Shown here piece after piece: positions 1,510-30,671 of a stretch of DNA of 36,220 bases. The stretch covers positions 1 to 36,220 of the forward strand of contig JACPHN010000060.1 in NCBI GenBank assembly GCA_016188575.1, written 5' to 3'. Made by a program: the position numbers and the translations under genes. Below the pieces are notes generated by a model. It was not told the origin of the DNA, did not search any database, and worked only from the letters and a program-made list of their open reading frames with translations. Positions within the stretch are counted from its first letter, which is position 1. The number at the start of each line of letters is the position of its first letter. The DNA comes from Candidatus Schekmanbacteria bacterium. GTDB lineage: Bacteria > CSSED10-310 > JACPHN01.

Positions 1510-2808
1510 TTGACGGCAGCCAGCCCGCTGCCAATACTAAGAGCGTACCGCTTCCCATTCTCGAGAACGTGTTCATTGCATCCCAAGGAAAATGTCGCAG
1601 GGCTGGTCTGTGTCATGCTGGCTACCCTGGTCGTGACTGGCTCCGAGGCGCGGGCGAGTGCGCTGGCGCGCGATTTCGACCTGTCGCTGCGGCTCGAGCA
1701 GGCGTACTTCTCGTGGGTCGATGGGGTGCGCAGCTCCGCCTCCTACCGCGTCAGCATGGCGGAACCGGCCGGAAAAAGTGCGGCGATCTTCGCCCGCCTG
1801 GCCGGCGGTTATCAGGAAGGTGCGCTGTTGACGTTTGCCCTGGATGACGCTCTTATCGCTGACCGGGCATCCCTGCTGCGCCGTACCTTTCGCCACGAGG
1901 TGGAGCTCGGTATGCGCCGGCGCCTGGGCGGGCCCCACGAGCTGGAGCTTTCGGCCCAGGCGGAGATCTTCGACAGTGCGGCCCTGCGGGATTCCTCGAC
2001 GAGCTTTGCCGCCGGCGGCACGGTCACGGCGCGAATCTCCGACAGTTGCCGTCTGCGTGCCTCGCTGCATGGCGTCTACAAGCAGTTCCCGAACATGACG
2101 ACCGCGACGAGCTCCGTCGACCACCGCGAGCTACGCCAGCGCACGCAGCTTCGCTTTCAGCGCAAGCTCGGCGCCCGGAAAGGCCGCCGCAGCCAGCAGA
2201 CCATCACCTGGTCGGTCGAGAGCGAGCTCCGCCTCCGCGGCTACGTGCGCTCGCACCACGACGCCCTGGACACCGATAGCGACAGCGCGAGCACGATCGT
2301 GCGTGATCCCGAAAACCGCCAGTATCGCGCGGCGGCGATCGCGACCGCCGTGACCTACGAGCTCCGCCGGCGCCTGACCGCGACCTCCGCGGCGCGCTGG
2401 GAGCAGAACCGCTCCCGCCACTACGACCGTTTTTTCGCGGACGCGGGTATCCTGGTGCGGAGCTACTACGACTACGATCACTTCGAGCTCAAAGAGAAAG
2501 CGGAGCTGGAGCTGATCCCCGCCCTCAGCCTGGAGCTCGAGGGTGCCGTAGGATGGCGCCGGTTCGCCAACTATCCGGCACGCGCGGAGGACGGAAGCTG
2601 GCTCGGCGAGCGGCGGAGAGACCGTGAGCTGAAGGCGAGCGTCGCGCTCGGCCTCGATCTCGACCGCCGCCTGCGCTGGTCGGGGAAACTTCGCCTGGAG
2701 GCGTTCGTCGAGCATCGGCTGGAGCGCTCGAATATGCGCGATGAACGGTCGTTCCTGACGAGCTACGAGCTTACTACCGTCGGGCTTCGGGCGCGGTTCG
2801 GAGTGTGA
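1510..2808 (+). CDS. Predicted outer-membrane beta-barrel protein
   Basis: The 432-residue product has an export signal near its start and then mostly alternating polar/hydrophobic strands with charged turns, for example 'ELELSAQAEIF', 'TWSVESELRLRGYV', 'LSLELEGAVGWRRF' and 'ASVALGLDLDRRLRWSGKL'. It ends in a strand closing 'RARFGV'. This is the pattern of an outer-membrane barrel with long, arginine-rich loops; I cannot name the family. The start is uncertain. TTG 1510 has AGGAGG at 1501-1506, only three bases away, and gives a long n-region before the hydrophobic core 'VAGLVCVMLATLVV' (about residues 29-42). ATG 1615 would leave almost no n-region. It is the first gene of a tight + strand operon, with the lipoprotein gene starting one base after its stop. 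It probably supplies the outer-membrane component of the system below. Confidence 0.6.
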   Translation: MTAASPLPILRAYRFPFSRTCSLHPKENVAGLVCVMLATLVVTGSEARASALARDFDLSLRLEQAYFSWVDGVRSSASYRVSMAEPAGKSAAIFARLAGGYQEGALLTFALDDALIADRASLLRRTFRHEVELGMRRRLGGPHELELSAQAEIFDSAALRDSSTSFAAGGTVTARISDSCRLRASLHGVYKQFPNMTTATSSVDHRELRQRTQLRFQRKLGARKGRRSQQTITWSVESELRLRGYVRSHHDALDTDSDSASTIVRDPENRQYRAAAIATAVTYELRRRLTATSAARWEQNRSRHYDRFFADAGILVRSYYDYDHFELKEKAELELIPALSLELEGAVGWRRFANYPARAEDGSWLGERRRDRELKASVALGLDLDRRLRWSGKLRLEAFVEHRLERSNMRDERSFLTSYELTTVGLRARFGV

Positions 2809-2809
2809 C

Positions 2810-3568
2810 GTGAGACGAAAGCTCGTGACGCGAGTGGGAAGCGCGGACCTGACTGGCGCCACCGCGGCGCTGGCGATGACACTCGCAGCGGTGGCCGGGG
2901 GTGGCTGCCTGTCTCCGTCCTCGGCCCCGGACGCCGCCATTGTGTCGATCGACGTCAACACCTACACCCGGGCCTTGCCCGGGTCCGTGGACCGACGGCT
3001 CGAGCTCGACTGCCGCGTCGCCGACCCGGACGCGGTCGGCTGCCACCAACTGCAGTCGCTGGTCCTCATCTTGCCCGGCAGCGATGCCGTGACGCTCGAC
3101 GTCCTGGCGACGGCCCAGTGCGAACCCCAAAGTGGTCGCACCGCGTATTCCTGGCGAGAAGACACCGGCCTGGACCTGCCGCTGACCGCCGGCCCCTACC
3201 GCGTGGAAGCGGCACTTCTCGATGGCGACGTCGCTTCCGTCGTCGACCGCGTCGCCGGTGACCCGCTCGCTCCGCCGGTGCTGCTGCAGCCCCGAAACGG
3301 CCGGACTGCCGGGCTCACGCCGCGCCTGGTCTGGGAGCAGGTGCGCGGAGCGGTGCGCTATCGCGTCGTGGTCACCGATGTCGCCGCCGACAGGCAAGTG
3401 CTTTCAGAAGTGACCGCCGGAGCGGAGTTTGCCATTCCTGCCGGCGTTACGGCGCTCGGACGCTTCTACCAATGGGACGTCTACGCGTATGACGCGGCCG
3501 CTGGAGATGACGTCGACCACAAGTCGCGCTCAGCCCGCTGGCGTTTTTATTCGGGAGAGCTGCCGTGA
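2810..3568 (+). CDS. Putative lipoprotein with a fibronectin-like C-terminal region
   Basis: The 252-residue product starts at GTG, one base after the preceding stop, with CGGAG upstream. Its N-terminus 'MRRKLVTRV...' leads to a hydrophobic stretch (about 17-29) and a Gly-Gly-Gly-Cys33, so lipid attachment at Cys33 is likely although the lipobox is not canonical. Residues 45-150 are beta-rich and contain three further cysteines. About 163-250 reads 'LLQPRNGRTAGLTPRLVWEQ', 'AVRYRVVVTD' and 'FYQWDVYAYD', the look of a fibronectin type III-like or carbohydrate-binding beta-sandwich often seen in secreted proteins. Its stop overlaps the next start, implying coupled translation. A periplasmic or outer-membrane partner of the barrel is likely. 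No enzymatic motif is visible. Confidence 0.6.
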   Translation: MRRKLVTRVGSADLTGATAALAMTLAAVAGGGCLSPSSAPDAAIVSIDVNTYTRALPGSVDRRLELDCRVADPDAVGCHQLQSLVLILPGSDAVTLDVLATAQCEPQSGRTAYSWREDTGLDLPLTAGPYRVEAALLDGDVASVVDRVAGDPLAPPVLLQPRNGRTAGLTPRLVWEQVRGAVRYRVVVTDVAADRQVLSEVTAGAEFAIPAGVTALGRFYQWDVYAYDAAAGDDVDHKSRSARWRFYSGELP

Positions 3569-5253
3569 GCAACGACCCTGCGGGCGTCGGCGAAGCAGTG
3601 CGGCGGCGCATCACTCTCGCCGTCATCCTCGTCCTTCTCGGGCTGCCCACGCTCCTCATGGCGTACAAGGTAACGGTTCTCGGCTACGGACTGCGGCTGA
3701 TCGTCCCCGAGGAGCGCTACTTCGTGAATGTTACCATGAGCTTCGAGGGCACCGGGGAAGGCGTCGACGTGCGCGTCGCCTTGCCCATCGAAACACCGCG
3801 CCAGCACGTCGTCGGCGAGTGGGTGGACTCTCCGGGTTTTCTCTTTCAAGTGGCACAGCAGCGGGGAAACCGCTTCGGCAAGTGGTCGCATCCCAAGCTC
3901 GGCGGTGCGGCATCCGTCGTCTACACCTTCAGCGCTACGGCCCGGCAAGAGCGTTACGTCATCGCGGACGAGCTCACGATCCCCGAGGCCTACCCCGAGG
4001 ACCTGCTACCCGATCTGGAGGCGACGGAGCTGATCCAATCCACGGACCCGGCGGTGATGGCGAAGCTCCGGGAGCTCGTGCCCGCCGGCGAGCGCCGCAT
4101 CGGGCGCACGCTGCGCGCGCTGTTCGACTTCGTCAAGGACGGCCTCAAGCCGCTCCCATTTCGCGGCACCACCGACGCCCTGACGGCGCTCCGCCTCGGT
4201 GAGGCGAGCTGCGGTGGCAAATCGCGGCTCCTGGCGGCACTGACCCGTGCGGCGGGCATACCCACGCGTCTCGTCGGCGGCATCCTGCTCGAGCCAGGTT
4301 CCAAGCGCACCTCTCATCTCTGGGTGGAGGCGTGGGTGTTCGCTCACTGGGTGCCCTTCGATGCGCTCAACAACCACTTCTCCGAGCTTCCCGCCGACTA
4401 CTTGGTGGTCTACTACGGGGAGGAACCGCTCTTCACTCACACTCGCGACATCAACTTCCAGTACGCGTTCAAGATGAAGAAGCGCCTGGCGACGCCGCAG
4501 GACGTGCTTGACGCACTGCGCGAGCACCCCCTGAACGCGATCAACGTGTGGCAGACCTTTCGGCAGGCCCACATCTCCCTCGAGCTGCTCAAGATCATCC
4601 TGATGATACCCTTCGGCGGCCTGATCGTCGTGCTGTTCCGCAACTTTATTGGCCTGCGCACGTTTGGGACGTTTCTTCCCGCGCTGCTGGCAGTGTCGTT
4701 TCGCGAGACCGGGATCTTGTGGGGAACGGCGGTGCTACTGACGGTCCTCGCGGTGGGCATTGCGGTGGTGCGGTCCTTGCGTGGGCTGCACTTGTTGCAC
4801 ACGCCGCGCCTGGTGGTCGTGCTTGTTGCGACCGTGTGCGTGCTGCTCGGCTACGCGATGCTTGGCGTGCAGCTCGGGCAGCTCGAGGCGGCAGGATCGG
4901 TGCTGTTTCCGATGGTGGTGCTCTCTCTTACCGTCGAGCGGTTCTTCATCTACGTCGAAGAGTCGGGATGGCGAGAGACGCTGCTCGTGTTGCTGCAGAC
5001 GATGATCGCGGTGCTCGGCTGCTATGCGGTCATGAACCTTTTCGTGTTACAGGCGGTGCTGCTGGCGTTCCCGGAGCTCCTGATGGCGGTCGCGGCAGCC
5101 GCCATCGCTGTCGGTAGCTACGCGGGCCTGCGGCTATCGGAGCTCTTTCGGTTTGCGCCGCTGGCCGCGGCCATCGCCATGGAGCCGGGGAGCGCAGTGG
5201 GCGGCGCCACGGGACTCGACACGGGGAACGCGGATCGTGAGGCGGCCCCATGA
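3565..5253 (+). CDS. Transglutaminase-like protein fused to seven transmembrane helices (UUP1-type)
   Basis: The 562-residue product starts at GTG (GGGAGAG upstream), overlapping the previous stop. One TM helix lies near residues 15-33. A periplasmic domain of about 330 residues follows with a transglutaminase-like core: Cys216 in 'EASCGGKSRLL', His251 in 'TSHLWVEAWV' and Asp266 in 'PFDALN'. About seven hydrophobic helices fill residues 345-545, starting 'LELLKIILMIPFGGLIVVLF'. This matches the families called 'inactive transglutaminase fused to 7 TM helices', which are regularly next to an ATP-grasp ligase, as here (4-base ATGA overlap with the next gene). Despite the family name, Cys, His and Asp are all present in plausible catalytic order, so activity as a peptidase or acyl transferase cannot be dismissed. 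The catalytic domain should face the periplasm. Confidence 0.88.
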   Translation: MSNDPAGVGEAVRRRITLAVILVLLGLPTLLMAYKVTVLGYGLRLIVPEERYFVNVTMSFEGTGEGVDVRVALPIETPRQHVVGEWVDSPGFLFQVAQQRGNRFGKWSHPKLGGAASVVYTFSATARQERYVIADELTIPEAYPEDLLPDLEATELIQSTDPAVMAKLRELVPAGERRIGRTLRALFDFVKDGLKPLPFRGTTDALTALRLGEASCGGKSRLLAALTRAAGIPTRLVGGILLEPGSKRTSHLWVEAWVFAHWVPFDALNNHFSELPADYLVVYYGEEPLFTHTRDINFQYAFKMKKRLATPQDVLDALREHPLNAINVWQTFRQAHISLELLKIILMIPFGGLIVVLFRNFIGLRTFGTFLPALLAVSFRETGILWGTAVLLTVLAVGIAVVRSLRGLHLLHTPRLVVVLVATVCVLLGYAMLGVQLGQLEAAGSVLFPMVVLSLTVERFFIYVEESGWRETLLVLLQTMIAVLGCYAVMNLFVLQAVLLAFPELLMAVAAAAIAVGSYAGLRLSELFRFAPLAAAIAMEPGSAVGGATGLDTGNADREAAP

Positions 5254-6221
5254 ACGCGATGCAGCGGCTTCAGGCATGGGTCGACGCGGCGCGGCGAGTC
5301 CGCGACGCCTATCGCACGATTGCCGGGATCAACGGGAGGAATCGAAACCTGGTCAAGCCCCTCAATCCGCGTTCGCAGTACCCGCTGGTCGACGACAAGC
5401 TGGCCTGCAAGCACGCGCTCTCGGCGGCGGGGGTGCCGGTTCCCGCGACGCTGGCCGTCCTGGGGCGCATGGCGGATCTTTCCCGCCTTCCCGAGGTCCT
5501 GTCCTGCCACCCAGTGGCGGCGATCAAACCGAGTCGCGGCCTGGGAGGCGGTGGCATCTTGCTGCTCTTTGGCGAACGCGCCCCGGGGCAGTACTGGCGG
5601 CAGCCGGAAAGCATCGCCCGCGGCGCGGAATCGGCGCGGCAGTGGGCAACGATCGGCGAGATCCGCGGCCACCTGCAGCAGATTCTCGCCGGCCAGTTCG
5701 CCATGGACCGACGTGACGATGTCGCTTTTCTCGAGGAGCTGCTGATCTCGATGCCCGAGATCGACCGTCTTTCGCCCGGGCACGTATCCGACGTCCGCAT
5801 CCTGGTTCACCGCGGCGTGCCCGTTCTCGCCATGACCCGGGCTCCCACGCGCGTTTCGGGTGGTCGCGCGAATCTACACCAGGGAGCGATTGGATACGGG
5901 ATCGACCTGGCCGACGGTCGAGCGGTCGCCGCGATTTTCCGCAATCGCCCGATTGGCCGCCACCCGGACACGGGCCTGCCGCTTGAAGCGTTCGTCGTTC
6001 CCCGCTGGGCCGAGCTTCTGGACATCGCGCGCCGGTGCGCCGCTGCGATCCCGCTGGGCTACCTGGGCGTCGACATCGTGCTTGATCGGCGGCATGGGCC
6101 GCTGGTCTTGGAGCTCAACGCCAGGCCCGGGCTGGCCATCCAGGTCGCCAACATGCGGGGGCTGTTTTCGCTGGTGCGGCCTGAGCTCCCGTCGGGCGTG
6201 ATCGCCGGGGGTGCGGCATGA
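5250..6221 (+). CDS. ATP-grasp peptide ligase (alpha-L-glutamate ligase-like, RimK-related)
   Basis: The 323-residue product is a cytoplasmic ATP-grasp enzyme. Lys93 in 'AIKPSRGLGGGGI' combines the ATP-binding lysine with the glycine-rich loop. Near the C-terminus 'PLVLELNARPGL' supplies the Mg-binding Glu288 and Asn290, preceded by 'YLGVDIVLD'. Length and order fit the 'alpha-L-glutamate ligase-like' ATPgrasp_ST family, which pairs with the transglutaminase-7TM protein in many proteobacteria. Known relatives such as RimK join an amino acid to a carboxyl group using ATP through an acyl phosphate; the substrate of this branch is unknown. The start overlaps the upstream stop as ATGA, with GAGG seven bases before it, so the two are translationally coupled. 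The natural reading is that this enzyme makes or extends a peptide that the membrane partner handles. Confidence 0.88.
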   Translation: MNAMQRLQAWVDAARRVRDAYRTIAGINGRNRNLVKPLNPRSQYPLVDDKLACKHALSAAGVPVPATLAVLGRMADLSRLPEVLSCHPVAAIKPSRGLGGGGILLLFGERAPGQYWRQPESIARGAESARQWATIGEIRGHLQQILAGQFAMDRRDDVAFLEELLISMPEIDRLSPGHVSDVRILVHRGVPVLAMTRAPTRVSGGRANLHQGAIGYGIDLADGRAVAAIFRNRPIGRHPDTGLPLEAFVVPRWAELLDIARRCAAAIPLGYLGVDIVLDRRHGPLVLELNARPGLAIQVANMRGLFSLVRPELPSGVIAGGAA

Positions 6222-9217
6222 CGGATATTGCCCAGACTGACGATGCGAGGCTCGCGGCACAGACGCCAAGGACCTATCTGATTCCCAACGAGCGGGCGTT
6301 GTGGGCGGCGCGCTACCTGCGGGCCGCGCGCGTGGTGCTCTCCGCGCTGCTGGCGGCGCTCGCCATGCTCCTGTACCACGCCTACGAACGCTCCGAGGAA
6401 GCGCTTCAGATCTACGCCGGTGAGCGGGTCATCTCCATCGGGCCGGACGATGCACGGAAGGTGGCCGAGAGGATGAAGCCGACCGCTTCGGGAGGCGGCG
6501 ACGAGGAAGACCTGGCGGTACGGGATGACGCCGGAGGAGATGCCGCCGAGGCCGCTGAGGCGCTGTCCGTCGGGGCGGAGACGAGTGCGAGTGAGCTCGG
6601 TGACCTCGGCGATCTCGAGCAGGCAGCGCGTGCGAATGGCGGCGACCGCGGGATTCCGGCGACGGTGCGACCGCTGTTCGATGCGGCGCTCGCCGCGCTG
6701 GCGAGCGGCGACCGTAGCGGCGCCGAAGCGTCACTGGCGGCGGCCGGCCGGCAGTCCCCGGACACTTTTCCCATCTGGGCAAATCTGGCGATGGTGCGGT
6801 TGCAGCTCGGCGCGCCCGCACGCGCGGTCGAGGCCGCGGAACGGGCGGCGTCCCTGGCCACGAAAGACGCGCGTGCTCATTTCGCTCTGGGGCTCGCGCG
6901 GTCCGCCGCGGGGGACAAGGAGGGAGCGCTGCGCGCGTACGATCAGGCGATCTCGCTGAAAGCCACCTTCACCGACGCGCACTTCAATCGCGCCGTGGTG
7001 CTCGCCGCGCTGAACCGCACGGACGAAGCGCTCGCGGCATACATCCGTGTCACCGAGCTCAGCCACGCCACTCGCTTTGCCGTCGCCCACTTCAACATCG
7101 GGCAGCTTCGCTTGCGAGCCGACGAGCCCGAGGAAGCGGCGAAGGCGTTTCGCGAAGCGACCTTGCTGCGCCCGGACTACGCCGAGGCACACCTCAACCT
7201 CGGCATTGCGCAGATGCGTGCCAAACACGAGGACGAGGCGCTGGCGTCTCTGGACAACGCGATCGCACTGCGGCCTGCCTATCGCCTGGCTCATTTCAAC
7301 CGCGGGCTCGTGCTGGCCAGGCAACAGCGAGTCGCGGCAGCGATCGCCGCTTACGATCGGGCACTGGAGGCCCCCGACCCCCTCGCGGAGGCAGCCGTAA
7401 ACCGCGGTATCCTGCTGATGCGCGGCGGCAACCTCGACGCTGCGTCGGAGAGCCTGCGGCAGGCGCTGGCGCTGCGGCCGAGCTATCCAGCCGCGCTGTT
7501 CAACCTCGGGCTGGTCAGCGCCAGGATGGGAAAGACGAAAGAGGCCGAGGCGTACTATCGGGCCGCGGACGCCCTTCCGGGCGGCCATGCCGACGCCTGC
7601 ATGAACCTCGGCGTGCTGCTGCGGCACGAGAACCGCAACCCCGAGGCCGTCGCCGCCTTTCAACGCGCGCTCGAGCTCGAGCCGAAGCAGGCGCGAGCAG
7701 CGCTCAATCTCGGATCCCTGTACGCGCGCGCCCGCATGGTCGAGGAGGCCATCGCCGCCTATGAGCGCGCCTTGCAGATCCAGCCCGGGTACGCCAAGGC
7801 CGCATTCAACCTCGGCGTGCTCTTCCGCCGCGAAAAGCGGACGCGCGAGGCGACGGCGGCGTTCCGCAAGGCGATCGCGGCTGACCTCGGGCTGACGCGC
7901 GCTCACTTCTTTCTGGCGCGGTCGCTCGCGGACCTTGGACAGAGCGCGGAGGCGCTCGAAGTAATGGAGGCGTACGTGCGCACGGCTCCGGATGCCGAAG
8001 ACGCGATTGTGGCCAAGGCCAAAATCTTGACCTCGCTTGGCCGGTCACAGGAGGCGATCGCCACCCTCGAGGAGCTTGCTCGCGACAAACCTGCCTCACG
8101 AGCGGCGCGTGCCGTGCTGGCCGATCTGCTCCTCGACGCCGGCCGCAACGAGGCGGCTCTGGCGATCCGCCGTGAGCTGGTGCGGCTGGATCCCAAGGAT
8201 GCTACCAGCGCCGCGGCACTCGGCGAGCTCCTCGCCGCTTCCGGCGACACGGAGGGCGCCATCGCGCAGTACCGAGCTGCCATCGCCGCCGCCCCCAAGC
8301 TCCTCTCGGCCCGCCTGGCACTTGGCACCGTGCTGCGTCGGGCAGGGCGGCGGCAAGACGCCATCGCTGTCTACCGGGAGCTACTCGCGCTCGCACCTCG
8401 TTACGCTCGCGCCTACTACAACCTCGGGGTGGCGCAGGCCGAGGACCGCCAGCACGCCGCCGCGGTTGAGAGCTACCGCAAGGCCATCGAGCTCGACCCC
8501 GAGTACGTCCGCGCGCACTGGAATCTCGCGCTCGCTCACGAGGCTCTCGGCCAGCTACCCGAAGCCATCGACGCACTCCAGGCGCTGGCCGGGTATGAGC
8601 CGAACCACGCCAAGGCGAGGCTCAAGCTGGCCGAGCTCTATGCGGCCTCCGAACGTGCGGATCTCGCCGCGGAGTCGCTTGGGAAGGCCAAAGTGATCGC
8701 CCCAGGGGACGCCGAGGTGTACGCTACCGGCGCCGACATTCTGCGCAAACAAGGAAAGTTGGAGGAGGCTCTCGCCCTGCTCGATGGCATACCGGCCGAG
8801 GTGGCGGCGGACCCGGCGGCGCTGTGGAGCCGCGGCGCGGCACTGATGGACCTGGCAAGATGGCCGGAGGCCGAGCGCGCGTTCGCGCAATACGTCGAGA
8901 TAAAGCCAGACTCGAAGCGCGCCTGGTTCAACCTGGGGCTCGTATTTGAGCGCCAGGGGCGGTTGGTGGATGCGGCCGAGCGATACGGCCGCGCCACTGC
9001 GCTCGACCCGCGATACCAGAAGGCGCTAAGTCGCGCCTGCGACGTTCTGGTCGGCGCCTCCGCCTGGCAACGCGCTCTCGCCCAGTGCCGCCTGGCGGTG
9101 GAGCTCGACGCCAGCGACGTCGAAGCAAAGAAAGGCTTGGAAGCAGCGCTCGGCGCTGTTGGCAAGCAGGTGCCGGGCCAGCCTACGGCGCGGCACATAG
9201 ACGGGAATAGGGAGTAA
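6218..9217 (+). CDS. Membrane-anchored protein with about two dozen TPRs
   Basis: The 999-residue product has one TM helix at residues 38-54, an acidic, low-complexity linker to about residue 140, then an almost unbroken array of 34-residue tetratricopeptide repeats to about residue 980. Typical units read 'AHFNRAVVLAALNRTDEALA' and 'AHLNLGIAQMRAKHEDEALA'. TPR superhelices are protein-binding scaffolds, and no catalytic domain is present. The N-terminus before the TM helix is short and carries several arginines just before it, so the TPR array is most likely periplasmic. It starts as ATGA inside the ligase stop, so it is coupled to it. In context it probably organises the transglutaminase-7TM protein, the lipoprotein or the repeat proteins in the envelope. 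Confidence 0.85.
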   Translation: MTDIAQTDDARLAAQTPRTYLIPNERALWAARYLRAARVVLSALLAALAMLLYHAYERSEEALQIYAGERVISIGPDDARKVAERMKPTASGGGDEEDLAVRDDAGGDAAEAAEALSVGAETSASELGDLGDLEQAARANGGDRGIPATVRPLFDAALAALASGDRSGAEASLAAAGRQSPDTFPIWANLAMVRLQLGAPARAVEAAERAASLATKDARAHFALGLARSAAGDKEGALRAYDQAISLKATFTDAHFNRAVVLAALNRTDEALAAYIRVTELSHATRFAVAHFNIGQLRLRADEPEEAAKAFREATLLRPDYAEAHLNLGIAQMRAKHEDEALASLDNAIALRPAYRLAHFNRGLVLARQQRVAAAIAAYDRALEAPDPLAEAAVNRGILLMRGGNLDAASESLRQALALRPSYPAALFNLGLVSARMGKTKEAEAYYRAADALPGGHADACMNLGVLLRHENRNPEAVAAFQRALELEPKQARAALNLGSLYARARMVEEAIAAYERALQIQPGYAKAAFNLGVLFRREKRTREATAAFRKAIAADLGLTRAHFFLARSLADLGQSAEALEVMEAYVRTAPDAEDAIVAKAKILTSLGRSQEAIATLEELARDKPASRAARAVLADLLLDAGRNEAALAIRRELVRLDPKDATSAAALGELLAASGDTEGAIAQYRAAIAAAPKLLSARLALGTVLRRAGRRQDAIAVYRELLALAPRYARAYYNLGVAQAEDRQHAAAVESYRKAIELDPEYVRAHWNLALAHEALGQLPEAIDALQALAGYEPNHAKARLKLAELYAASERADLAAESLGKAKVIAPGDAEVYATGADILRKQGKLEEALALLDGIPAEVAADPAALWSRGAALMDLARWPEAERAFAQYVEIKPDSKRAWFNLGLVFERQGRLVDAAERYGRATALDPRYQKALSRACDVLVGASAWQRALAQCRLAVELDASDVEAKKGLEAALGAVGKQVPGQPTARHIDGNRE

Positions 9218-9221
9218 CAAG

Positions 9222-12101
9222 ATGGCAGTCGAAAAATCGCCAACTGCTTCCCGCCGCTCGCGACGCGTGATGCACCCTGTCGCGCGCGATGGCGACATCA
9301 TCGTCATGCCGGCGACAGCCGGCAGCCAGTCGACCCCGGCGACCCTGCCCCGGCGAAAGCGGGGGGCCGGGGTGACGAGGCAACGTGTGTCACGCGCCTC
9401 GCGGGGGCAGGCGAACTGGGGCGGGATCGTGATCTGCGCCAGCGCCTGCGTCTGTGTCTGTGCCCTGCTCGGCTGGCTAGCCGCGCCTGCCGCCGCCGCC
9501 ACCATCCAGGTGACGATTACGGACGAGTCGACCTCCTCGCCCCTGGCCGGCATCGACATTGACGTCTACGATGCGAGCACTAGCAACGTGGGTGGCAAAA
9601 CGACCGATCAGGTCGGCTTCGAAGAGGTGACCGGCCTGCCGGCCGGCAGCTACGTCGTAAAAGCCGACGCCTCCAAGACCCAATACTATGTCGACGAGTA
9701 CTACGACAATGCGGTCAGCCTCTCCACGGCAACGCCGATCACCGCCACGGCCAATCAGGTGGTCGCCATCGCGATGGCACTGCAACCTGGCGGCCTCATT
9801 CGCGGAACGGTGCGGGATACACAGGGCGCGGCGCTCGCCGGCATCGACCTGGACCTCGAGGACGCCGCTGGGACCAAGCTCGCGTACAGCGCGACCTCGG
9901 GAGACGGAAATGTCCGACCCGTAGGCACCTATGAGCTCGGTGCCGTACCGCCAGGTACCTATTATCTGCGCACGGATCCTGCCTACGGCGCGGGCACCCC
10001 GCAGCATTATCAGCGGCGCTACTATCCAGACGCGCCCGATCGCACGACGGCGCAACCCATCATCGTGGTGGCGGGCGCCGACCAGCAGAGCATCGATTTC
10101 GCGCTCCCGGCGGGTTACTACATTGCCGGCGGCGCGACGGCCGCGGCAGGCGGTGGGGCACCGGTAGCGGGCCTGGACCTCGACGTGCTCGATGCCGCGA
10201 CCGGCGTCAAGATCACCGCCGCCGGGGGCATCACTGATGCGAACGGCCAGTACGCGATTGGCGCGCTGCCACCGGGAACCTACAAGGTGCGCGTCGACCC
10301 GCGGTATCCGCTGCATTACCTCCGGCAATACTTTGCGGGAGCGTCCGACCCCGCCGGCGCGACAATCCTTGATCTCGCATCCGCGGATGCCACGGGTGTC
10401 GACTTTTCAGTTGCCGAGGGCGCCTACATCAGCGGCCTTGTTCAGTCTGCCGGCACCGGAACCCTCGCCGGCATCGATCTCGACGTCTATGACGCGTTTG
10501 GCAATCTGCTCGAGACTTCCGCTACCAGCGACGCATCGGGGCAGTATATCCTGGGACCGCTGCCCGCCGGTGCGTACCGCGTGAAAGCCGATCCCGTCTA
10601 CCCCCAACCGTACGCGAATCAGTACTACACCGGGTCAAGCAGCCTGGCGGGCGCCACCGCCGTGCCGGTGACCCCGCCTGCGGACGTCGCGGCGATCGAC
10701 TTCGCCTTGATTCGGGGCGCCTTCGTTTCCGGCTCCGTCACGACGGCGGAGCCGCGATCGCCAAGCCGCGCGGTCGCGCGCGCTCCTCTGGGAGGCGTGC
10801 GCATTCGCTTGCGCGATGCCGGGGGCGCGCTGACTGGACCTACGGCGATCTCGGACGCGGCTACCGGCGTCTTCCACGCGGGTCCTGTGTCGGCCGGCAC
10901 GTACCACGTTCAGGCCGCCCCCGCACAAGGGCTCAACCGGGTCGGGCAGTACTACGCTGGACAATCGACGGAGGCCAGCGCGACCGATGTGGTTGTGGCG
11001 GACGCGGAGGTAACCGGCATCGATTTTGCGCTCGCGACCGGAGGCATGGCCGAGGGAACCATTACCAGCTCCGCCGGCGGTCCCGTGAACGTGGCCAAGA
11101 TCGAGGTTTACGATCTGGCCGGGACCCAGTACGAGATCGATCAGGTCACCACGCTGCCGGACGGCACGTACAGAGTGGACGGCCTGCCCAACGCTTCGTG
11201 GTTCTTGCGGGCATTGCCTCCGGTAGGGCTGGGTGACGCCGCGCAGTTTTACGGTCAGGCGCTGGTCTTGGAGCACGCGCAGGTATTTGCCACAGCCGCG
11301 GGCGCGATTTCCGGCGGCATCGACGTCCAACTCGCGGCGGCGGCGTCCGTGACCGGGTCGGTCGTCGACGACCAGTCTTCCGCACCTTTGGCGGGGTTCG
11401 ATATCGACATCTGGGACGCCGGCTGGAACAGAATCCTCCTGAGCGGCGACCAGACCGCGGCTGACGGCACCTTTGACATCGGCGGCCTTCCTGCCGGCGA
11501 TTACTATCTCCGCGTCGATTCCGACCCGACAGCGCAACAGGGCTACGTCGACGTCTACTACGACGGGAGCGGCGGCCAGGTCAGCGATGCGCTCAATGCC
11601 GGCACTCTGGCGATGGTGCCTCCGGCGGCGACGACGGGCCTGGACTTCCGCCTGCGGAAGGGCGGGGCAATCGAGGGCCGGATCACCCGGGACGATACGC
11701 AGAACGGCGTGACCGGCGTGTCACTACGGCTCTACGACGGCGGCGGCGCGCTCGTTCCCGAAACCCTGTCGTCGGGGACCAATGGCGTCTACCATTGGGG
11801 AGGTCTGGCCGATGGCCAGTACCACCTGTACGCCCAGACCAGAGTTGACGGCGATGGTGCCGTACTGCTGGCCGAGTACTACAATGACGCGAGCAACCTG
11901 GCGGATGCCACCGCCATAACGATAACGAGCGGCGGAACCCGGGCGGGTATCGATATCGGGCTAACGGTCGCAACAGTTCCGGCGCTATCGGGAGTGAGCG
12001 CCTTGGTGGCGCTAGGCGCTGCGGTGGCCGCACTGGCCCGGCGTCGCGGCTCTGGGGCCATTCGGGAGCGGGAGCGTGATCGATGCGCGTCGGCCGAATA
12101 G
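9222..12101 (+). CDS. Secreted protein of eight carboxypeptidase-regulatory-like repeats, with C-terminal sorting-like tail
   Basis: The 959-residue product contains eight beta-sandwich repeats of roughly 90-115 residues. Each has the pattern 'LAGIDLDVYDA', then a Gly-rich turn, 'LPPGTYYLR.DP', 'QYY.GA...AT.I' and 'GIDFAL', the signature of CarboxypepD_reg/prealbumin-like domains common in surface proteins. The export signal is internal: hydrophobic core about 67-93 ending 'APAAAA', after a basic extension of about 65 residues. ATG 9222 has GGGAG eight bases upstream and lies four bases after the TPR gene. GTG 9372 would give an ordinary signal peptide but has no good ribosome site. The tail has 'VPALSG' (919), a hydrophobic stretch (925-939) and Arg-Arg-Arg (940-942), as in IPTL-/PEP-CTERM-like anchors. 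Its end overlaps the next gene by 19 bases. Confidence 0.8.
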   Translation: MAVEKSPTASRRSRRVMHPVARDGDIIVMPATAGSQSTPATLPRRKRGAGVTRQRVSRASRGQANWGGIVICASACVCVCALLGWLAAPAAAATIQVTITDESTSSPLAGIDIDVYDASTSNVGGKTTDQVGFEEVTGLPAGSYVVKADASKTQYYVDEYYDNAVSLSTATPITATANQVVAIAMALQPGGLIRGTVRDTQGAALAGIDLDLEDAAGTKLAYSATSGDGNVRPVGTYELGAVPPGTYYLRTDPAYGAGTPQHYQRRYYPDAPDRTTAQPIIVVAGADQQSIDFALPAGYYIAGGATAAAGGGAPVAGLDLDVLDAATGVKITAAGGITDANGQYAIGALPPGTYKVRVDPRYPLHYLRQYFAGASDPAGATILDLASADATGVDFSVAEGAYISGLVQSAGTGTLAGIDLDVYDAFGNLLETSATSDASGQYILGPLPAGAYRVKADPVYPQPYANQYYTGSSSLAGATAVPVTPPADVAAIDFALIRGAFVSGSVTTAEPRSPSRAVARAPLGGVRIRLRDAGGALTGPTAISDAATGVFHAGPVSAGTYHVQAAPAQGLNRVGQYYAGQSTEASATDVVVADAEVTGIDFALATGGMAEGTITSSAGGPVNVAKIEVYDLAGTQYEIDQVTTLPDGTYRVDGLPNASWFLRALPPVGLGDAAQFYGQALVLEHAQVFATAAGAISGGIDVQLAAAASVTGSVVDDQSSAPLAGFDIDIWDAGWNRILLSGDQTAADGTFDIGGLPAGDYYLRVDSDPTAQQGYVDVYYDGSGGQVSDALNAGTLAMVPPAATTGLDFRLRKGGAIEGRITRDDTQNGVTGVSLRLYDGGGALVPETLSSGTNGVYHWGGLADGQYHLYAQTRVDGDGAVLLAEYYNDASNLADATAITITSGGTRAGIDIGLTVATVPALSGVSALVALGAAVAALARRRGSGAIRERERDRCASAE
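9301..9380. repeat. Palindromic intergenic-type repeat lying inside a coding region
   Basis: GCCGGC at 9308-9313 and 9318-9323 form a hairpin with a GACA loop. A second hairpin, CCCCGGC with GGCCGGGG, occupies about 9347-9373 and ends in GGTGACGAGG. This is the look of the short palindromic elements ('...CCGGCGAAAGCCGG...GGTGACG...') dispersed between genes in many proteobacteria. A related element is at 18850-18915. Here it falls between the ribosome-site-supported start (9222) and the signal peptide of the repeat protein, and it stays in frame. Confidence 0.6.
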
Positions 12102-14764
12102 CTCTGACGGGGCTTGCGGCGGTCGCCTTGACCATCCTGGCGACCGCCGCCGCGGTAACCTCGGCGCGCGCGGCCACCTTTGCAGGCACCGTGCGCGATG
12201 CTGACGGCGGTGTGCCCCTCGCGGGTGTCCGCGTCCGCGCCGTGGCGCCGGAAAACGGCACTACGATCAGCACTGACGAGACCGACGAAGCGGGTTTCTA
12301 TGAGCTCCCGGGGCTGCCGGCGGGCACCTACTTGCTGGCATTTTCCGGATCCGCTGCCGCGCCGTTCGTCGTGACCCAATACTACGATCGAGCGCCGAGC
12401 CGCTCCCGGGCCACGCCGCTGGAGATGACTTACAACCAGATTCGGCGGATCGATGCGCTGGCCATCCGCGGCGGCATCCTGAGCGGCACGGTATCCGTTG
12501 AGGGTGGAGGCGGCGCCGCGGCGATCGATCTCGACCTGTACGACAGTAGCGGAGCAAAGAGCCCTCATGGCGAGGTCACCAAGGATGACGGCTCCTTCCG
12601 CATCGGACCGGTCCTTTCGGGGACGTACTACCTTTTCGCGGATCCCAGCTTCGCCGCTGGCCAGCATCTGCAGGCGCGCTACTTTGGCGGAGCGACCAAG
12701 CGCAGCGAGGCGAAACCGATCGCGGTAGTCGCCGGTCGCGAGACCGCGGGGCGCAACATCGCCTTGCCTGAAGGCTACTACCTCCTGGGCAGCGTCGAGG
12801 CCCCGGCCGGCCGGCCCCGTGCAGGTATCGATCTGGACGTGTTCGACGCGCGGACAGACGCGCCGATCGACACCCGCGGCGACGTCACCCGCGATGACGG
12901 GCACTTCGTTATCGGCGCGGTTCCCCCGGGTGTCTACAAGCTGAAAGCCGATAATACCTATCCGGGCCACCTGGTGCAGATGTTTTTTGCGTCGGCGCTC
13001 AGCGCCGGCGACGCCACTGCCATCGACGCGCGGGCGCGCGATGCCCTGGACCTGCTCATTCGGACGGAGGTCGGCGGCTACATCGAGGGTTCGGTACGAT
13101 CCAGCTCGGGCGCTCCTCTGGCGGGAATCGACCTCGATCTTTTCGACGCCGCCGGGGACCGCATCACGGAATACGACGACACGTCGGCGGCGTCCGGCTT
13201 GTACCGGCTTGGCCCCGTGCCTCCTGGAACCTACTACCTGAGCGCCGATCCGGCATTCCCGGTGCCGTACTGCGGCCTGCGCTTCGGTGCGACGGCCGCG
13301 CACCCGGACGGCACCGCGCTGCTCGTGCGGCCCAATCAGGATGAGTCACCGCTCGACCTGCTCCTGGAGCCGTGCCGGTACATCAGTGGCCACATTCGCC
13401 GCGCCGCGGGCGGAGCCGCCGTCGCGGGCGTGCGGGTCCGCGCTCTGCTCGTGTCGGGAGCCGACGAGCGCACCGTAGCGACCGCACGTTCCGATGCGGA
13501 CGGAGCCTTCCATCTTGGCGGCCTGCCCGCAGGGACCTATCGGGTGCTCGCGGATCCAGACGCGGAAATGAACCTCGTCGACGCCTACTACCCACATGGC
13601 CTGCGGCTCGAGGACGCTGCCCCCATTTCCCTCACGCTCAAGTCCGATCGCGCGGGAATCGACTTCGCGTTGCAAGACGGCGCCAGTATCCGGGGGCGGA
13701 TCAGCGGCGGCGCAAACGCCGGCCCCCTCGCGGGCATTGACGTGGATGTGTACTGGCCGGACGAAAAGGTTTACAGCATCGAGGCATCTCCGTCGGACGC
13801 AGCAGGAGCCTACGAGGTGCGCGGCTTGCCCGCCGGCCGGTGGCTCGTGCGCGCTGACCCACCGCCTTCCTCGGGTCTCGCGCCGCAATTCTTCCCGTTT
13901 TCATTTCGCGTGGGTGACGCCTCGCCGGTGCGTGTGAGCACGGCGGCGGTCGTGTCCGGCATCGACTTCGCGTTACGCCCCGCCGGAACCATTCACGGCC
14001 GCGTGACCGATGAAGCGACCCAGGCGCCGCTCGCCGGCCTCGACGTCGACGTGTGGGATGATCGCTGGCAGCTCGTTTTCGATATCGGCGACGGCAGCTC
14101 GGACGCGGACGGCAGGTTCGTCGCGACGGGCCTGGAGCCCGGCGAATACTTCATCCGGGCCAACCCCGACGCGGGAGATCCGCGCGGCTACATGGACGCG
14201 TTCTACGATGGCGCAGGTGGCACGGTGCCGCAGCGGCAGCTCGCGGGTCCAGTCGTCGTGGAGGCGCCTGCGGACGGAGAGGAGATCCCGTTTCCGCTGC
14301 GGCCAGGGGCGGCGATTGCCGGCACGATTCGGCGGCCCGATTCCCATGCCGGGGTGCCCGGGGTACCCTTGCGGCTGTACGACGCGACCGGACTCCAGAT
14401 TTGGGCGACGGTTCGGTCGCGGGATGGCGGCAGCTACCGCTGGGGAGGGCTACCGCCCGGTCAATACCGGCTCGGCGCGGGGCGTACGATGCTGCCGGGT
14501 GGCGACCTGCTGGAGGAGACGTTCTACGAGCAGAGCGCGGACCTGGTGGGAGCGACGCCGATCGCCGTGTTCGGCACCGCGACGACGACCCCTGTCGATA
14601 TTTCGATGACGCTCTACGCCGTCCACTGGACCGGCTCGTCCGGGGCGGCCGCCGCCGTGGTTGCCCTGTCGATACTCGTGGCGCGCCGGCCCAAATCCAA
14701 CCTGCCGGAGACCACCCACCTCAACTCCCCCCGCACGCGCGGGGAGGCAGGAGGGGGCGGGTAA
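12083..14764 (+). CDS. Second secreted protein of eight carboxypeptidase-regulatory-like repeats (paralog)
   Basis: The 893-residue product is a paralog of the preceding protein. It has a standard signal peptide (cleavage likely after Ala30, 'SARA'), then eight beta repeats with the same 'LAGIDLDLFDA / PPGTYYL.ADP / GIDFAL' wording, and a C-terminal hydrophobic segment at 855-867 followed by Arg-Arg. Repeat 5 has 'AGVRVRAL' where the neighbour has 'GGVRIRLRD'. Repeat 7 has 'LDVDVWD' against 'FDIDIWD', and repeat 8 'VPLRLYDA' against 'VSLRLYD'. The two are therefore alignable in register and arose by whole-gene duplication. GGGAG precedes the ATG, and it overlaps the upstream gene by 19 bases. 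The last 25 or so residues (from about 'LNSPRTRGEAGGGG') appear to be read from a palindromic element. Probably surface-exposed or periplasmic and membrane-tethered. Confidence 0.82.
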   Translation: MRVGRIALTGLAAVALTILATAAAVTSARAATFAGTVRDADGGVPLAGVRVRAVAPENGTTISTDETDEAGFYELPGLPAGTYLLAFSGSAAAPFVVTQYYDRAPSRSRATPLEMTYNQIRRIDALAIRGGILSGTVSVEGGGGAAAIDLDLYDSSGAKSPHGEVTKDDGSFRIGPVLSGTYYLFADPSFAAGQHLQARYFGGATKRSEAKPIAVVAGRETAGRNIALPEGYYLLGSVEAPAGRPRAGIDLDVFDARTDAPIDTRGDVTRDDGHFVIGAVPPGVYKLKADNTYPGHLVQMFFASALSAGDATAIDARARDALDLLIRTEVGGYIEGSVRSSSGAPLAGIDLDLFDAAGDRITEYDDTSAASGLYRLGPVPPGTYYLSADPAFPVPYCGLRFGATAAHPDGTALLVRPNQDESPLDLLLEPCRYISGHIRRAAGGAAVAGVRVRALLVSGADERTVATARSDADGAFHLGGLPAGTYRVLADPDAEMNLVDAYYPHGLRLEDAAPISLTLKSDRAGIDFALQDGASIRGRISGGANAGPLAGIDVDVYWPDEKVYSIEASPSDAAGAYEVRGLPAGRWLVRADPPPSSGLAPQFFPFSFRVGDASPVRVSTAAVVSGIDFALRPAGTIHGRVTDEATQAPLAGLDVDVWDDRWQLVFDIGDGSSDADGRFVATGLEPGEYFIRANPDAGDPRGYMDAFYDGAGGTVPQRQLAGPVVVEAPADGEEIPFPLRPGAAIAGTIRRPDSHAGVPGVPLRLYDATGLQIWATVRSRDGGSYRWGGLPPGQYRLGAGRTMLPGGDLLEETFYEQSADLVGATPIAVFGTATTTPVDISMTLYAVHWTGSSGAAAAVVALSILVARRPKSNLPETTHLNSPRTRGEAGGGG
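14725..14746. repeat. Palindromic element at the 3' end of the second repeat-protein gene
   Basis: CTCCCC at 14725-14730 pairs with GGGGAG at 14741-14746 around a GC-rich loop, followed by a purine run to 14760. It resembles the 'CTCCCCCGC..GCGGGGGAG' elements found between genes in many proteobacteria. The coding frame runs through it to TAA at 14762-14764. There is no T-run, so it is not a typical intrinsic terminator, though it could fold in mRNA between the operon and the kinase gene. Confidence 0.45.
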
Positions 14765-14889: not shown

Positions 14890-17800
14890 ATGGACACGGC
14901 CGAGCCTTTGAAGAATACCTCGCAGCGACCCGCCGACGACACGGTGCCGGAGCAGATCGGCCCATTTCTCATCGCAAAGTTGCTGGGGCGTGGCGCTTCC
15001 GGTCTGATCTATGAAGCGCGCCACGCGGTTACCGGCGAGATTGCCGCCGTCAAGGTGCTGCACGCCTTGAAGGAAGGCCGCATCGAAGCCTTGCGGCGCG
15101 AGCTCGCGGTGCTCGCCCGGCTCGATCATCCCGGGGTGGTGCGGGTGCTCGCCAGCGGGGTTCGCGACGGGTTGCCGTGGTTCGCCATGGAGCGGGTCGA
15201 GGGGGAAGACTTGCGCGCGCATTGCCGCCGCTTGTGGGATCCGACCGCGTCGCCCGGCGCACCGGAACCCGAAGCGCTTCGGCTCATCCTCGCCACGCTG
15301 CGCCGGCTCGCACTGGTGCTCGCCTTCGTGCACGGCGAGGGCATCGTTCACCGGGATCTCAAGCCCGAAAACATCCTGGTGCGCCCGAGCGGCTTTCCCG
15401 TGCTGGTCGACTTCGGTCTGCACCTGCGATTTGGGCGCGAGACGTATCGCGAGGCGCTGGCGGAGGATCAGGAGGCCGCCGGCACGCTCCTGTTCATGTC
15501 CCCCGAGCAGCTCCGCGGCGAACCCGCCGATGCGCGCAGTGACTTGTACTCGCTCGGTTGCGTCATCTACGAGATTTTCACGGGTCATCCGCCGTTCTTG
15601 GGGCCGACAGTGCGCCACGTGATCCAGGGCCACCTTTTTGACGCGCCGCTACCTCCCTCGCGGGACCATCCGGGTTGCCCTGCCGTGCTCGACCAGCTCA
15701 TTCTCCGCCTGCTCGCCAAGGAACCGGGGGCGCGCCTTGGCCACGCTGCGGCGCTCGCGGAGCAGCTCGTCCTGGCCGGCTGGCTCGACCCCGAACCCGC
15801 CTGGTCCCGACCCGTCACGGTATGCCCCATCTACAGGCCGGCCTTGGTGGGCCGCATTCAGACGGTGCAGACCGTCCTCGAGAGACTGCGGGCGGGGCGC
15901 CCCGGAGAACAGGCCGGGCAGGCCAGGCCAGCCACGGAGCTCCTCCTCCTACTTATCGGCGGCGAGAGCGGCATCGGCAAGACGCGTGTGCTCATGGAGG
16001 TCGCGCGCGCGGCGCGCCGACTTCGCTATCGTATTCTCCGCGGCGAATGCCTGCCGCCGGCGGACCACCCGGCCGACGCGCGGCAAGCCGCGGGTGGCGG
16101 CGCTCTCTACCCCTTCGCGGGGATGCTGAGGGAGATGGCCGATCAGTGCCTCGAGGCCGGGGAGCGCGAGATTGCGCGCCTGTTCGGCGACGACCTGGCG
16201 CTCCTGTTGCCGTACAGCGCGGCGCTCGCGGAGCTCGTCTGCCCCGGCGCCGCCGCAATCGCGCAGCGCGCCGAGCTGCTGCCTCCGGAGGTGCGGAAGC
16301 GCCAGCTTTTCTCCGCGCTGCTGCGCGCCATCAACGCACTTGCGGGGGACCGCGCACCGCTCGTCATCATCGACGACCTACAGTGGGCGGACGAGCTCAC
16401 GCTGGAGCTGCTCACGGCCGTCGCGAGCGGCGATTTCGCCGCGGCGGCACCGGCTTTCCTCGGCGCCTACCGCGCGGAGGAAGCCGGCCCGCTGCTCGCA
16501 GCCTGTCTCTCGGCCGCCGGCGCGCACGTGCTGACTCTGGAGCGGCTCTCGCCGGCGGATATCGAAAGCATGACGGCGGAGATGCTGGGCACTGCCGCTC
16601 CGCCGCCTGAGCTCACCCGCTTTCTCGCCGAGGCCGCGAACGGAAACCCGTTCTTCGCCGCCGAGCTCCTGCGCAACGTGATCATGGCAGGCATTTTCCG
16701 CGCTGACGTCAACGGGCGGTGGGAGCGCGCGGCTGAAACCGCCGGGGAAAGCGCCGACCCGCGGCTGGCCGGGGAGCTCTCCTGCCTACCCGTTCCCAAA
16801 TCCGTCGAGGAGGTCATCGCCGCGCGCGTCTCCCGCCTGTCGCCGCGCGCGCGCGAGGTGATCGACGTCGCCGCGCTCGTGGGACGACACCTGCGCTGGC
16901 CGATCCTCGAGCTCGCGCTGCCGCACTTGGCGACGGTGCGTTCCGCGGTGACCGCCGAGCTCCTGGCGCGGCACGTCGTCGAGGAGTCGGAAACGAGCGG
17001 CGGGCTTCAGTTTGCGCATGATCGCATCTGCGAGGTGGTGCAGGCGCGGCTCGACCCCGCCAGGCGCGCGGCGCTTCACCGGCAGGTGGCGCTGGCTCTG
17101 GAAAGCGACGCGTCGACGTCGGATCGAGTGCCCGAGCTTGCCGCCGACCTCGCGCGCCACTGGCGGGCGGCGGCGGCTCCCGAGCAGGCGGCGCGCTACG
17201 CGCTGATCGCGGCGCGCCATGCGGTCACCCTGTCCGCGCTGGCGGCAGCGGAGGAACACTTCAAGCACTTCCTCGCGCTCTGCGACGAGCTTGGCGAGGC
17301 GTGGCGCACCGCGGCCGGGCACGGCGGGCACGTGACAGCGGCCGCGCGCTACGAGCTGGCGCAAGACGTTCTCAGAGCCCAGGGCCGGGCCGCCGACGCC
17401 GCGGCCGAGCTGGAAATCGCGCGGAGCGAGCTGGCCGCCACCCCGGGCTCATCGGAAAGTGCTCTGAACGCCCAGATCCTCCTCGGCCTTGCGGCCGCGC
17501 GCCGGGAAATCGGTGATCCGCACGCGGCGATTCCCCACGTCGCCGCTGCCGAGACGACCTTTCGCGAGCTCGGAGATCGCGTCGGAGCGGCCCGGGCCCG
17601 CGCGGAAACCGCCGCCATTCACAAGGCGCTCGGCCACATTCCCGCCGCCGCGGAGCACTTTTCCCGTGCCGCCGCGGCTTTTCGGTTGGCCGGCGAGCGC
17701 GGGGGCGAGGCTCTGGCCCTGACGAATCTGGCGGGCATTCTCGCGTCTCAGGGACAGGAGGCGGCCGCGGAGAGCGCTTTCGCGGCCGCGATCTCGGCCC

Positions 17801-19106: not shown

Positions 19107-19211
19107 GATCTCAACTGCGCTGATTCGGCCGACCCGGTGAGGGCGATAGCGCCGGCACTGGGCTGTTATGGATCGCGGGTAGCGTGCCATCGAGCGAAAG
19201 GGAGTGGATGC

Positions 19212-19886
19212 GTGAACGTCAGCGAGGAGAAGTTCGACGCGTTGCTCGCGCTCATGCGCGAGCAGATCGAAGAAACACGCAACGGCCTCAGCGAGGTTCG
19301 CGCCGGTCTTCTGGCTGTTGAGGGCCGGGTGGACCTGGTTTCCTCGCACCTCGTCGAGCTTCGGGAGGAGTCGCGCAGCGGCCTGACGGGTCTCCGGGAG
19401 GAGACACACGAGAGTCTCAGCGAGCTGCGCGCGGATATGCGCGCGGGGCTCTTGGGGGTTGAGGGCCGGGTGGACCTGGTTTCCTCGCACCTCGTCGAGC
19501 TCCGGGAGGAGACGCACAACGGCCTGGCGGGGCTCCGGGAGGAGACGCACAACGGCCTGGCGGGGCTCCGGGAGGAGACGCACAGCGGCCTGGCGGGGCT
19601 CCGGGAGGAGACGCACAGCGGCCTGGCGGGGCTCCGGGCGGAGACACACAGCGGCCTGGCGGGGCTCCGGGCGGAGACACACGAGAGTCTCAGCGAGCTG
19701 CGCGCGGATATGCGCGAGGGCTTTTTGGCGGTGGAAGGCCGCCTGGATCTGGTTTCCTCCGGCCTCGTCGACCTCCGCGATCGCTTCGACGCCTTCTTGT
19801 CCGGACCTGGACATGGGCTCGTCGCCCGCGTTGAGGACCTCGAGCGCCGTCTCGAGCGTCTTGAGCGCGAGCGCCGGGCGAGTTAG
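19212..19886 (+). CDS. Coiled-coil protein of 11-residue repeats
   Basis: The 224-residue product starts at GTG (AAAGGGAG about 11 bases upstream). The same start context appears in the truncated copy at 18640. It is almost wholly helical: 'SEEKFDALLALMREQIEETR', a 47-residue segment ('GRVDLVSSHLVELREE') present twice, then repeated 11-residue units of the type G-L-A-G-L-R-E-E-T-H-N/S, ending in a charged leucine heptad 'VEDLERRLERLERERR'. The 11-residue period suggests a right-handed or apolipoprotein-like coiled coil. No signal peptide or TM segment is seen, so it is probably cytoplasmic. I do not recognise a named family. It is convergent with the helicase gene downstream. Confidence 0.75.
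   Translation: MNVSEEKFDALLALMREQIEETRNGLSEVRAGLLAVEGRVDLVSSHLVELREESRSGLTGLREETHESLSELRADMRAGLLGVEGRVDLVSSHLVELREETHNGLAGLREETHNGLAGLREETHSGLAGLREETHSGLAGLRAETHSGLAGLRAETHESLSELRADMREGFLAVEGRLDLVSSGLVDLRDRFDAFLSGPGHGLVARVEDLERRLERLERERRAS
19500..19685 (+). repeat. 33-base tandem repeat encoding the 11-residue units
   Basis: Five consecutive 33-base units begin at 19521, 19554, 19587, 19620 and 19653, each starting GGCCTGGCGGGGCTCCGGG and differing only in the AAC/AGC and GAGGAG/GCGGAG codons. A partial unit precedes them from 19500. Larger repeats flank the array: a segment at 19317 recurs 141 bases later at 19458, and ACACGAGAGTCTCAGCGAGC recurs near 19405 and 19678. Near-identity at DNA level indicates recent expansion or slippage. 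Confidence 0.9.
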
Positions 19887-28316: not shown

Positions 28317-28344
28317 AGTATCGCCCGCTGCCCGCCGCTGTCAA
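28317..28344 (-). promoter_or_regulatory. Candidate promoter of the ECF sigma operon
   Basis: On the minus strand TTGACA (28344-28339) and GATACT (28322-28317) are 16 bases apart; the -35 is a perfect match. Transcription would begin near 28310 and leave about 65 bases before the sigma start. The -35 overlaps the wzt stop codon. No typical ECF-type GGAAC motif was seen. Confidence 0.4.
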
Positions 28345-29699: not shown

Positions 29700-29700
29700 C

Positions 29701-30546: not shown

Positions 30547-30583
30547 CGAAAGTCTCCTGGAAAACGATGAAAAATCGCGGCGC

Positions 30584-30612
30584 TTTATAACGCGCTCGCG
30601 AGCTCAAGTAAA
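30584..30612 (-). promoter_or_regulatory. Candidate promoter of wzm-wzt
   Basis: On the minus strand TTTACT (30612-30607) and TATAAA (30589-30584) are 17 bases apart, about 40 bases before the GTG start of wzm. The -10 matches five of six, within a locally AT-richer stretch. Confidence 0.45.
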
Positions 30613-30671
30613 GATCACGGCCTCCCACCGGCCAGGAATGCGGCCCGGCGGCGGCCGCCCCGACCCCGGCG

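Follow-up and report, generated by a model that had tools for sequence, protein, structure and literature searches.

What does a transglutaminase-7TM (TG-7TM) protein do when it is encoded with an ATP-grasp ligase in the middle of a run of genes for envelope proteins, and does such a run form one functional unit? The question is raised by a locus at positions 1510–14764 of the window, by which is meant the whole 36,220-nucleotide stretch of DNA that was analysed, part of a 9.2 Mb draft genome of Candidatus Schekmanbacteria bacterium (275 contigs, 94% complete). Seven open reading frames lie there, all on the forward strand, at the positions given in the preliminary description, and recomputing them together with their junctions returned the tight spacing it had reported (overlaps of 4–19 bases or gaps of 1–4 bases), the successive junctions from gene 1 to gene 7 being +1, −4, −4, −4, +4, and −19 bases. 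The GC pattern is coding-like in 7/7 genes, with low values at codon position 2 and high values at position 3, and gene 1 starts with a TTG codon that has AGGAGG ahead of it. A promoter-like match at 1510 was rejected, as it overlies this start codon and such matches are no more frequent than expected by chance. After gene 7, 125 bases pass before the following forward-strand gene, which encodes a kinase, begins at 14890; 14764 is therefore a reasonable right edge. The seven-gene locus is a real and coherent predicted operon.

The product of the kinase gene behind the operon (14890–18543, +) is of the Ser/Thr type and has AAA and TPR regions; the gene could be co-transcribed with the operon, and its product could regulate the operon. 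Further along the window, a gene at 19137–19886 (+) encodes a coiled-coil-like protein and contains a 33-base unit repeated 5.6 times almost without change (19499–19682, 98% match), equivalent to 11-residue repeats, and the copy number of this unit is likely to vary. The reverse strand encodes a 1162-aa protein with methyltransferase, PLD-like nuclease, type III restriction/helicase, and S24 peptidase-like regions (20030–23518, −) and, at 28341–32535 (−), a Wzt/Wzm-like polysaccharide ABC exporter, the genes of which adjoin those of two GGDEF proteins that also have a receiver and an FHA domain, respectively.

Gene 3 (3565–5253, +) is, by its Pfam matches (HMM), a genuine TG-7TM protein of the PF14400/PF14402 type, matching PF14402 (E 3.7e-47), PF14400 (E 5e-8), and PF01841 (E 6.4e-16, 59 bits). 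Its predicted topology consists of an N-terminal TM segment, a periplasmic beta domain with a transglutaminase-like domain, and a C-terminal membrane bundle, and the RloB model NF052267 aligns with it over nearly the full length at 171 bits, the cut-off of this exact-match model being 900. Pfam labels the TG-7TM family "inactive transglutaminase," and the catalytic Cys, His, and Asp are gone from the aligned Legionella and Aeromonas relatives; in gene 3 all three, overlooked in the preliminary description, are present, as C216 (GEASCGGK), H251 (TSHLWVE), and D266 (WVPFDA). Across 105 aligned TG-7TM proteins, the triad occurs in six only, the window protein and five from Zetaproteobacteria, while the other 99 have neither the triad (0) nor a cysteine near the C216 position. 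An AF2 model of gene 3 (28 sequences, pLDDT 79.5) has its best PDB match in 3isr, a putative transglutaminase-like cysteine protease (Z 18.2, residues 49–310, 244 residues, 3.6 Å), and the runners-up for the TG part are LapG (Z 6.5) and classical transglutaminases (Z 6.4). The TG fold and the Cys-His-Asp triad are as in transglutaminase-like cysteine peptidases and transferases (PF01841, 3isr, triad alignment), and the domain is apparently a working one, putatively cutting or joining. For the 7TM bundle, no clear relation to known channels or transporters was found; matches to RND pumps were set aside, a Z of about 6 being within what common arrangements of helices give.

Directly downstream, with its start overlapping the end of gene 3 by 4 bases, gene 4 (5250–6221, +) occupies the place of an RloC-type partner and encodes a predicted cytoplasmic, RimK-like, RloC-related ATP-grasp ligase of 323 aa. 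Its profile matches identify it as a ligase of the PF14397 type (E 1.5e-62, HMM), with a score of 275 bits against TIGR02291 (under the cut-off of 314) and 34.8 bits against PF08443 over the C-terminal motif; LELNARPG, from the ATP/Mg motif region, is conserved, the closest PDB chains are alpha-L-glutamate ligases, and identity to Legionella, Aeromonas, and Halobacterium relatives is 38–41%. On a plasmid of Halobacterium sp. DL1, a TG-7TM-type membrane bundle that has no TG domain is joined to an ATP-grasp domain in a single open frame (L006:5815-7569), unannotated in the record and with transposase genes on its flanks. This fusion ties the two proteins together, places the ligase and the C-terminus of the 7TM bundle on the cytoplasmic side, and supports a synthase-translocase unit.

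The genes around this pair can be assigned with differing degrees of certainty. Gene 1 (1510–2808, +; 432 aa) is predicted to be an outer-membrane beta-barrel, with a signal-peptide-like segment at residues 29–47 and a two-residue hydrophobicity alternation of z = 5.3 against shuffles, within the range of the Zetaproteobacteria barrels described below (4.2–6.2); helical, kinase, and ATP-grasp controls gave −1.8 to 0.2, and the beta-rich genes 2 and 6 gave 2.4 and 2.7, respectively. The assignment is by pattern and position rather than by homology: no Pfam family was matched, known export barrel families included, and comparison with the Zetaproteobacteria barrels gave no clear homology (blastp E 0.073; hhalign probability 0.9%; hmmsearch). 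A single-sequence structure model of gene 1 reached a pLDDT of 39, too low to use. Gene 2 (2810–3568, +; 252 aa), with a beta-sandwich-like domain, is probably a lipoprotein, the one basis for this being a weak lipobox, VAGGGC, read by eye; it has no family match (HMM) and no counterpart at the Zetaproteobacteria loci. Gene 5 (6218–9217, +; 999 aa) matches TPR_2 at E 4.9e-82 in 16 separate stretches, the span of which, divided by 34, gives about two dozen repeats, and a single TM segment is predicted at 34–52, ahead of the TPRs, so that the TM-anchored array of this size in the preliminary description is borne out. A membrane-anchored TPR scaffold, as in synthase-dependent polymer export, is in this way predicted for the periplasm.

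Genes 6 (9222–12101, +) and 7 (12083–14764, +) encode secreted-type proteins, each with seven PF13620 (CarboxypepD_reg) stretches, and their 38% identity over 829 columns indicates a tandem duplication; gene 6 ends in a hydrophobic, TM-like tail (921–939). These two proteins had been proposed as substrates or surface products of the system. This is unsupported, because relatives are absent from all of the Zetaproteobacteria loci, the CarboxypepD_reg family occurs at many further places in the same genome, and Lys (1%) and Gln (2–4%) are rare in both, and the most sensible view of the two accessory genes is that they are cargo or neighbours specific to this lineage. Sorting by an exosortase was also rejected, because the IPTL-CTERM model matches neither tail. 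The genome itself encodes an XrtH-like exosortase on contig 106 (L003:1348-2031; 86.5 bits against a cut-off of 86), with a LysM lytic transglycosylase as its neighbour, and one clear IPTL-CTERM protein only.

Whether the remaining genes belong together can be judged from their relatives. A GTDB genome scan with the ATP-grasp alignment gave 80 loci, nearly all of them RloA-RloB-RloC operons of Gammaproteobacteria, and one of these 80, in Ghiorsea (Zetaproteobacteria, L070), has the order of the window, TG-7TM / ATP-grasp / TPR. A search of the class Zetaproteobacteria found the window subtype in 5/78 genomes (E about 1e-130, 38–41% identical to gene 3), and in all five this gene order is present with the triad intact. 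Four of the five loci are uninterrupted by a contig end (L097, L098, L099, and L100); in these, a gene for a barrel of ∼395 residues comes next after the TPR gene, and the TG and ATP-grasp genes overlap in all of them (longest open frames), as in the window, whereas the barrel gene of the window comes first in its operon. Gene 5 has a positional counterpart at the Zetaproteobacteria loci, weakly alike in its N-terminal non-repeat part (blastp E 0.003). The preliminary description had seen one coupled envelope unit and had asked whether the pair co-occurs with TPR and barrel genes elsewhere; it does, with TPR genes at 5/5 and barrel genes at 4/4 evaluable Zetaproteobacteria loci, and this conserved neighbourhood upholds the tie between the TG-7TM/ATP-grasp pair and the TPR and barrel genes. 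A conserved four-part module of TG-7TM, ATP-grasp, TPR, and barrel proteins is well supported, with the membership of the window barrel resting on pattern and position.

Searched with a profile, 398 Pseudomonadota genomes gave scores of 979–1041 bits for the five Zetaproteobacteria proteins, which are in the profile, and ≤226 for all others, and the best TG-7TM matches in another phylum reached 335–337 bits and had no cysteine. The top relatives there (G465, G661, G794, and G644) were tried as active members and rejected, all of them being without the cysteine, and those with a readable context have RloA next door or no TPR gene next door. In the tree of TG-7TM proteins, that of the window groups with those of the Zetaproteobacteria in one clade (support 100/99), a grouping not recovered in the ATP-grasp tree, where branches are long; as the two host lineages are from separate phyla, transfer of the genes between them is likely. 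Only this genome was found for its own order and eight for its phylum, and PF14402 is present in none of the seven others. A GTDB genome scan with the gene 3 protein alone gave no match, nor did a search of viral contigs with either the TG-7TM or the ATP-grasp alignment. A third TG-7TM type of ∼840–860 aa, with an insert between the TG and 7TM parts and no catalytic Cys (L066:2801-5386 and L168:7587-10103), adjoins an ATP-grasp gene, and RloA is absent. At another locus, a secreted protein resembling C25-type peptidases by eye (L160:5149-7197, −) is encoded downstream of a dead TG-7TM/ATP-grasp pair, the TG domain of which has the His and Asp and lacks the Cys.

The active and dead types of TG-7TM protein occur in two contexts, and an intact triad and the retropepsin RloA are mutually exclusive. 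A TPR gene is next door at 6/6 active-type and 0/85 dead-type loci, and RloA at 0/6 and 77/88, respectively, although these associations represent few independent events, because the five Zetaproteobacteria loci form one clade of close kin and only the window adds a second, independent case. By genome, PF05618 (the RloA/RimB family) is absent from that of the window, both in the locus and in the whole 94% complete assembly, and from 4/5 active-type Zetaproteobacteria, and it is present in 19/21 dead-type genomes (Fisher p 0.0014, a value that overstates independence for the same reason). With the triad intact, a TPR gene next door, RloA missing, and the core recurring in Zetaproteobacteria, the locus represents a variant form of rloABC, in which a lipoprotein and a duplicated pair of beta-repeat proteins join the four-part core, and the core appears to be a so far undescribed relative of the recently discovered rlo genes for stress tolerance in Pseudomonas. 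The 2009 amidoligase survey by Iyer et al. reportedly discusses the TG-7TM/ATP-grasp family and may already mention TPR neighbours.

The pair had been called functionally unresolved in the preliminary description, which is partly outdated, as a 2025 study dealt with rloB and rloC in P. aeruginosa (PMC12239564). In that species, RloB is an inactive TG-7TM protein, RloC an ATP-grasp protein, and RloA a secreted retropepsin with a positively charged substrate channel that cleaves polyglutamate in vitro; deletion of rloB or rloC rescues a mutant without all three RloA proteases, and rloABC influence osmotic tolerance, beta-lactam resistance, and shape (PMC12239564). From the cleavage and the rescue, the simplest reading is that RloC makes and RloB delivers into the periplasm a polyglutamate-like product, which would be harmful if untrimmed.

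For the window, the best explanation, to which a probability of roughly 45% is given, is an envelope module whose four-part core makes a peptide and exports it toward or through the outer membrane. The ATP-grasp enzyme would add amino acids to form a peptide chain in the cytoplasm, perhaps acidic ones such as glutamate by analogy with RimK, which makes poly-alpha-glutamate (PMC12239564); the 7TM part would carry the chain across the inner membrane, and the TG domain would cut the emerging chain or transfer it to an acceptor. The periplasmic TG domain with its triad may thereby stand in for the separate RloA of the classic rlo operon. The TPR scaffold and the barrel would lead the chain over the periplasm and onward to, or across, the outer membrane, in the way that TPR-plus-barrel proteins act in exopolysaccharide export. 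We infer the substrate, the direction of transport, the choice between cutting and transfer, and export itself. An export-type machine is favoured because TPRs with a barrel are, as in PgaA, BcsC, and PelB, a standard layout for moving polymers across the outer membrane (PMC9384988, PMC11379886, PMC12141448), the TPR domains of PgaA and BcsC serving polymer export (PMC9384988, PMC11379886). The export model is weakened by the frontal position of the window barrel, for which no homology to the Zetaproteobacteria barrels was found, by the few independent events behind the associations, by the ATP-grasp tree, which does not unite the window with Zetaproteobacteria, and by the 7TM bundle, for which no clear kinship with a known channel or transporter was found. 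A stronger form, a dedicated Gram-negative machine for poly-amino-acid synthesis and secretion organised like cellulose or PNAG synthase, is rather less likely; in it, the ATP-grasp and 7TM parts would be the synthase-translocase, the TG domain would process the product in the periplasm, and the TPR protein and barrel would be the exporter.

Several other readings have to be weighed against export. Somewhat doubtful is a homeostatic role resembling that of rlo, in which a polyglutamate-like periplasmic chain would serve osmotic or cell-wall balance and the active TG domain, in the role of RloA, would degrade it; the polyglutamate cleavage by RloA, the osmotic, beta-lactam, and shape phenotypes of rloABC (PMC12239564), and the mutual exclusion of active TG and RloA all agree with it. 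The TPR protein and the barrel would then serve another step, for example, keeping the chain in place at the cell wall or outer membrane, but their restriction to the active type is left unexplained. The model of the preliminary description, in which the TG domain attaches the peptide to envelope proteins or cross-links them and the repeat proteins are substrates or surface products, is improbable. In its favour, the repeat genes are packed tightly against the others (junctions of +4 and −19 bases), both products are of secreted type, and an intact triad could do transfer as well as hydrolysis; however, these genes are missing from all of the Zetaproteobacteria loci, their family is common elsewhere in the genome, their Lys and Gln content is low, and the top fold match of the TG domain is a putative protease and not a classical transglutaminase (Z 18.2 vs. 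6.4).

It is very unlikely that the TG domain is a LapG-like processing protease for a surface protein, with the ATP-grasp product acting only as its regulator. Among fold families, LapG ranks second (Z 6.5), but the match covers the common TG core only and a Z of 6–6.5 is in the unreliable range, and the genes examined include no LapA-like or LapD-like partner. The least probable reading is accidental proximity of a genuine TG-7TM/ATP-grasp pair to unrelated envelope genes, which would account for the differing position of the barrel gene in the window and in Zetaproteobacteria but not for the TG / ATP-grasp / TPR order and overlapping junctions kept in distant phyla, nor for the TPR neighbour at 6/6 active-type and 0/85 dead-type loci.

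The export reading matters beyond this locus. RloB/RloC-type pairs are widespread, and in P. aeruginosa osmotic tolerance, beta-lactam resistance, and biofilm have been tied to them. A variant that occurs naturally, keeps its enzyme domain intact, and comes with an apparent route for export is a direct handle on such pairs. The variant predicts a secreted or surface peptide product and a single catalytic cysteine to mutate, and it predicts that the dead TG domain of RloB is a relic, its job having been taken over by RloA. If true, non-ribosomal peptide polymers made by ATP-grasp enzymes would join the list of exported bacterial surface polymers.

Known systems resemble parts of the locus. The Slam translocon shares the combination of TPRs with a barrel, and the TPR protein of the Zetaproteobacteria scores above threshold for TPR_Slam, as generic TPRs may; however, their barrels match SlipAM below the family cut-off, and no Slam-type client was identified. 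The exopolysaccharide export systems (BcsC, PgaA, and PelBC) have a periplasmic TPR scaffold with a barrel and, in Pel, also a lipoprotein (PMC9384988, PMC12141448), whereas the window has an amino-acid ligase in place of a glycosyltransferase, TPRs and barrel on separate chains, and a barrel for which homology was not found. The Anbu operon (ATP-grasp, Alpha-E, transglutaminase, and Anbu) shares an ATP-grasp and transglutaminase-like pair with proposed peptide synthesis (PMC5666114), but has the proteasome-like Anbu and Alpha-E where the window has the 7TM, TPR, and barrel proteins. Similarly, rimABK has the ATP-grasp ligase RimK, the ribosomal S6 glutamate ligase, which gene 4 resembles, and the retropepsin RimB, yet RimK and RimB are cytoplasmic, target ribosomal protein S6, and have no membrane or envelope partner. 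In rloABC, the TG-7TM and ATP-grasp genes are homologous to those of the window, adjacent, and in identical order; in contrast to rloABC, the window has no RloA in locus or genome, keeps its TG triad intact, and adds TPR, barrel, lipoprotein, and repeat genes to the pair.
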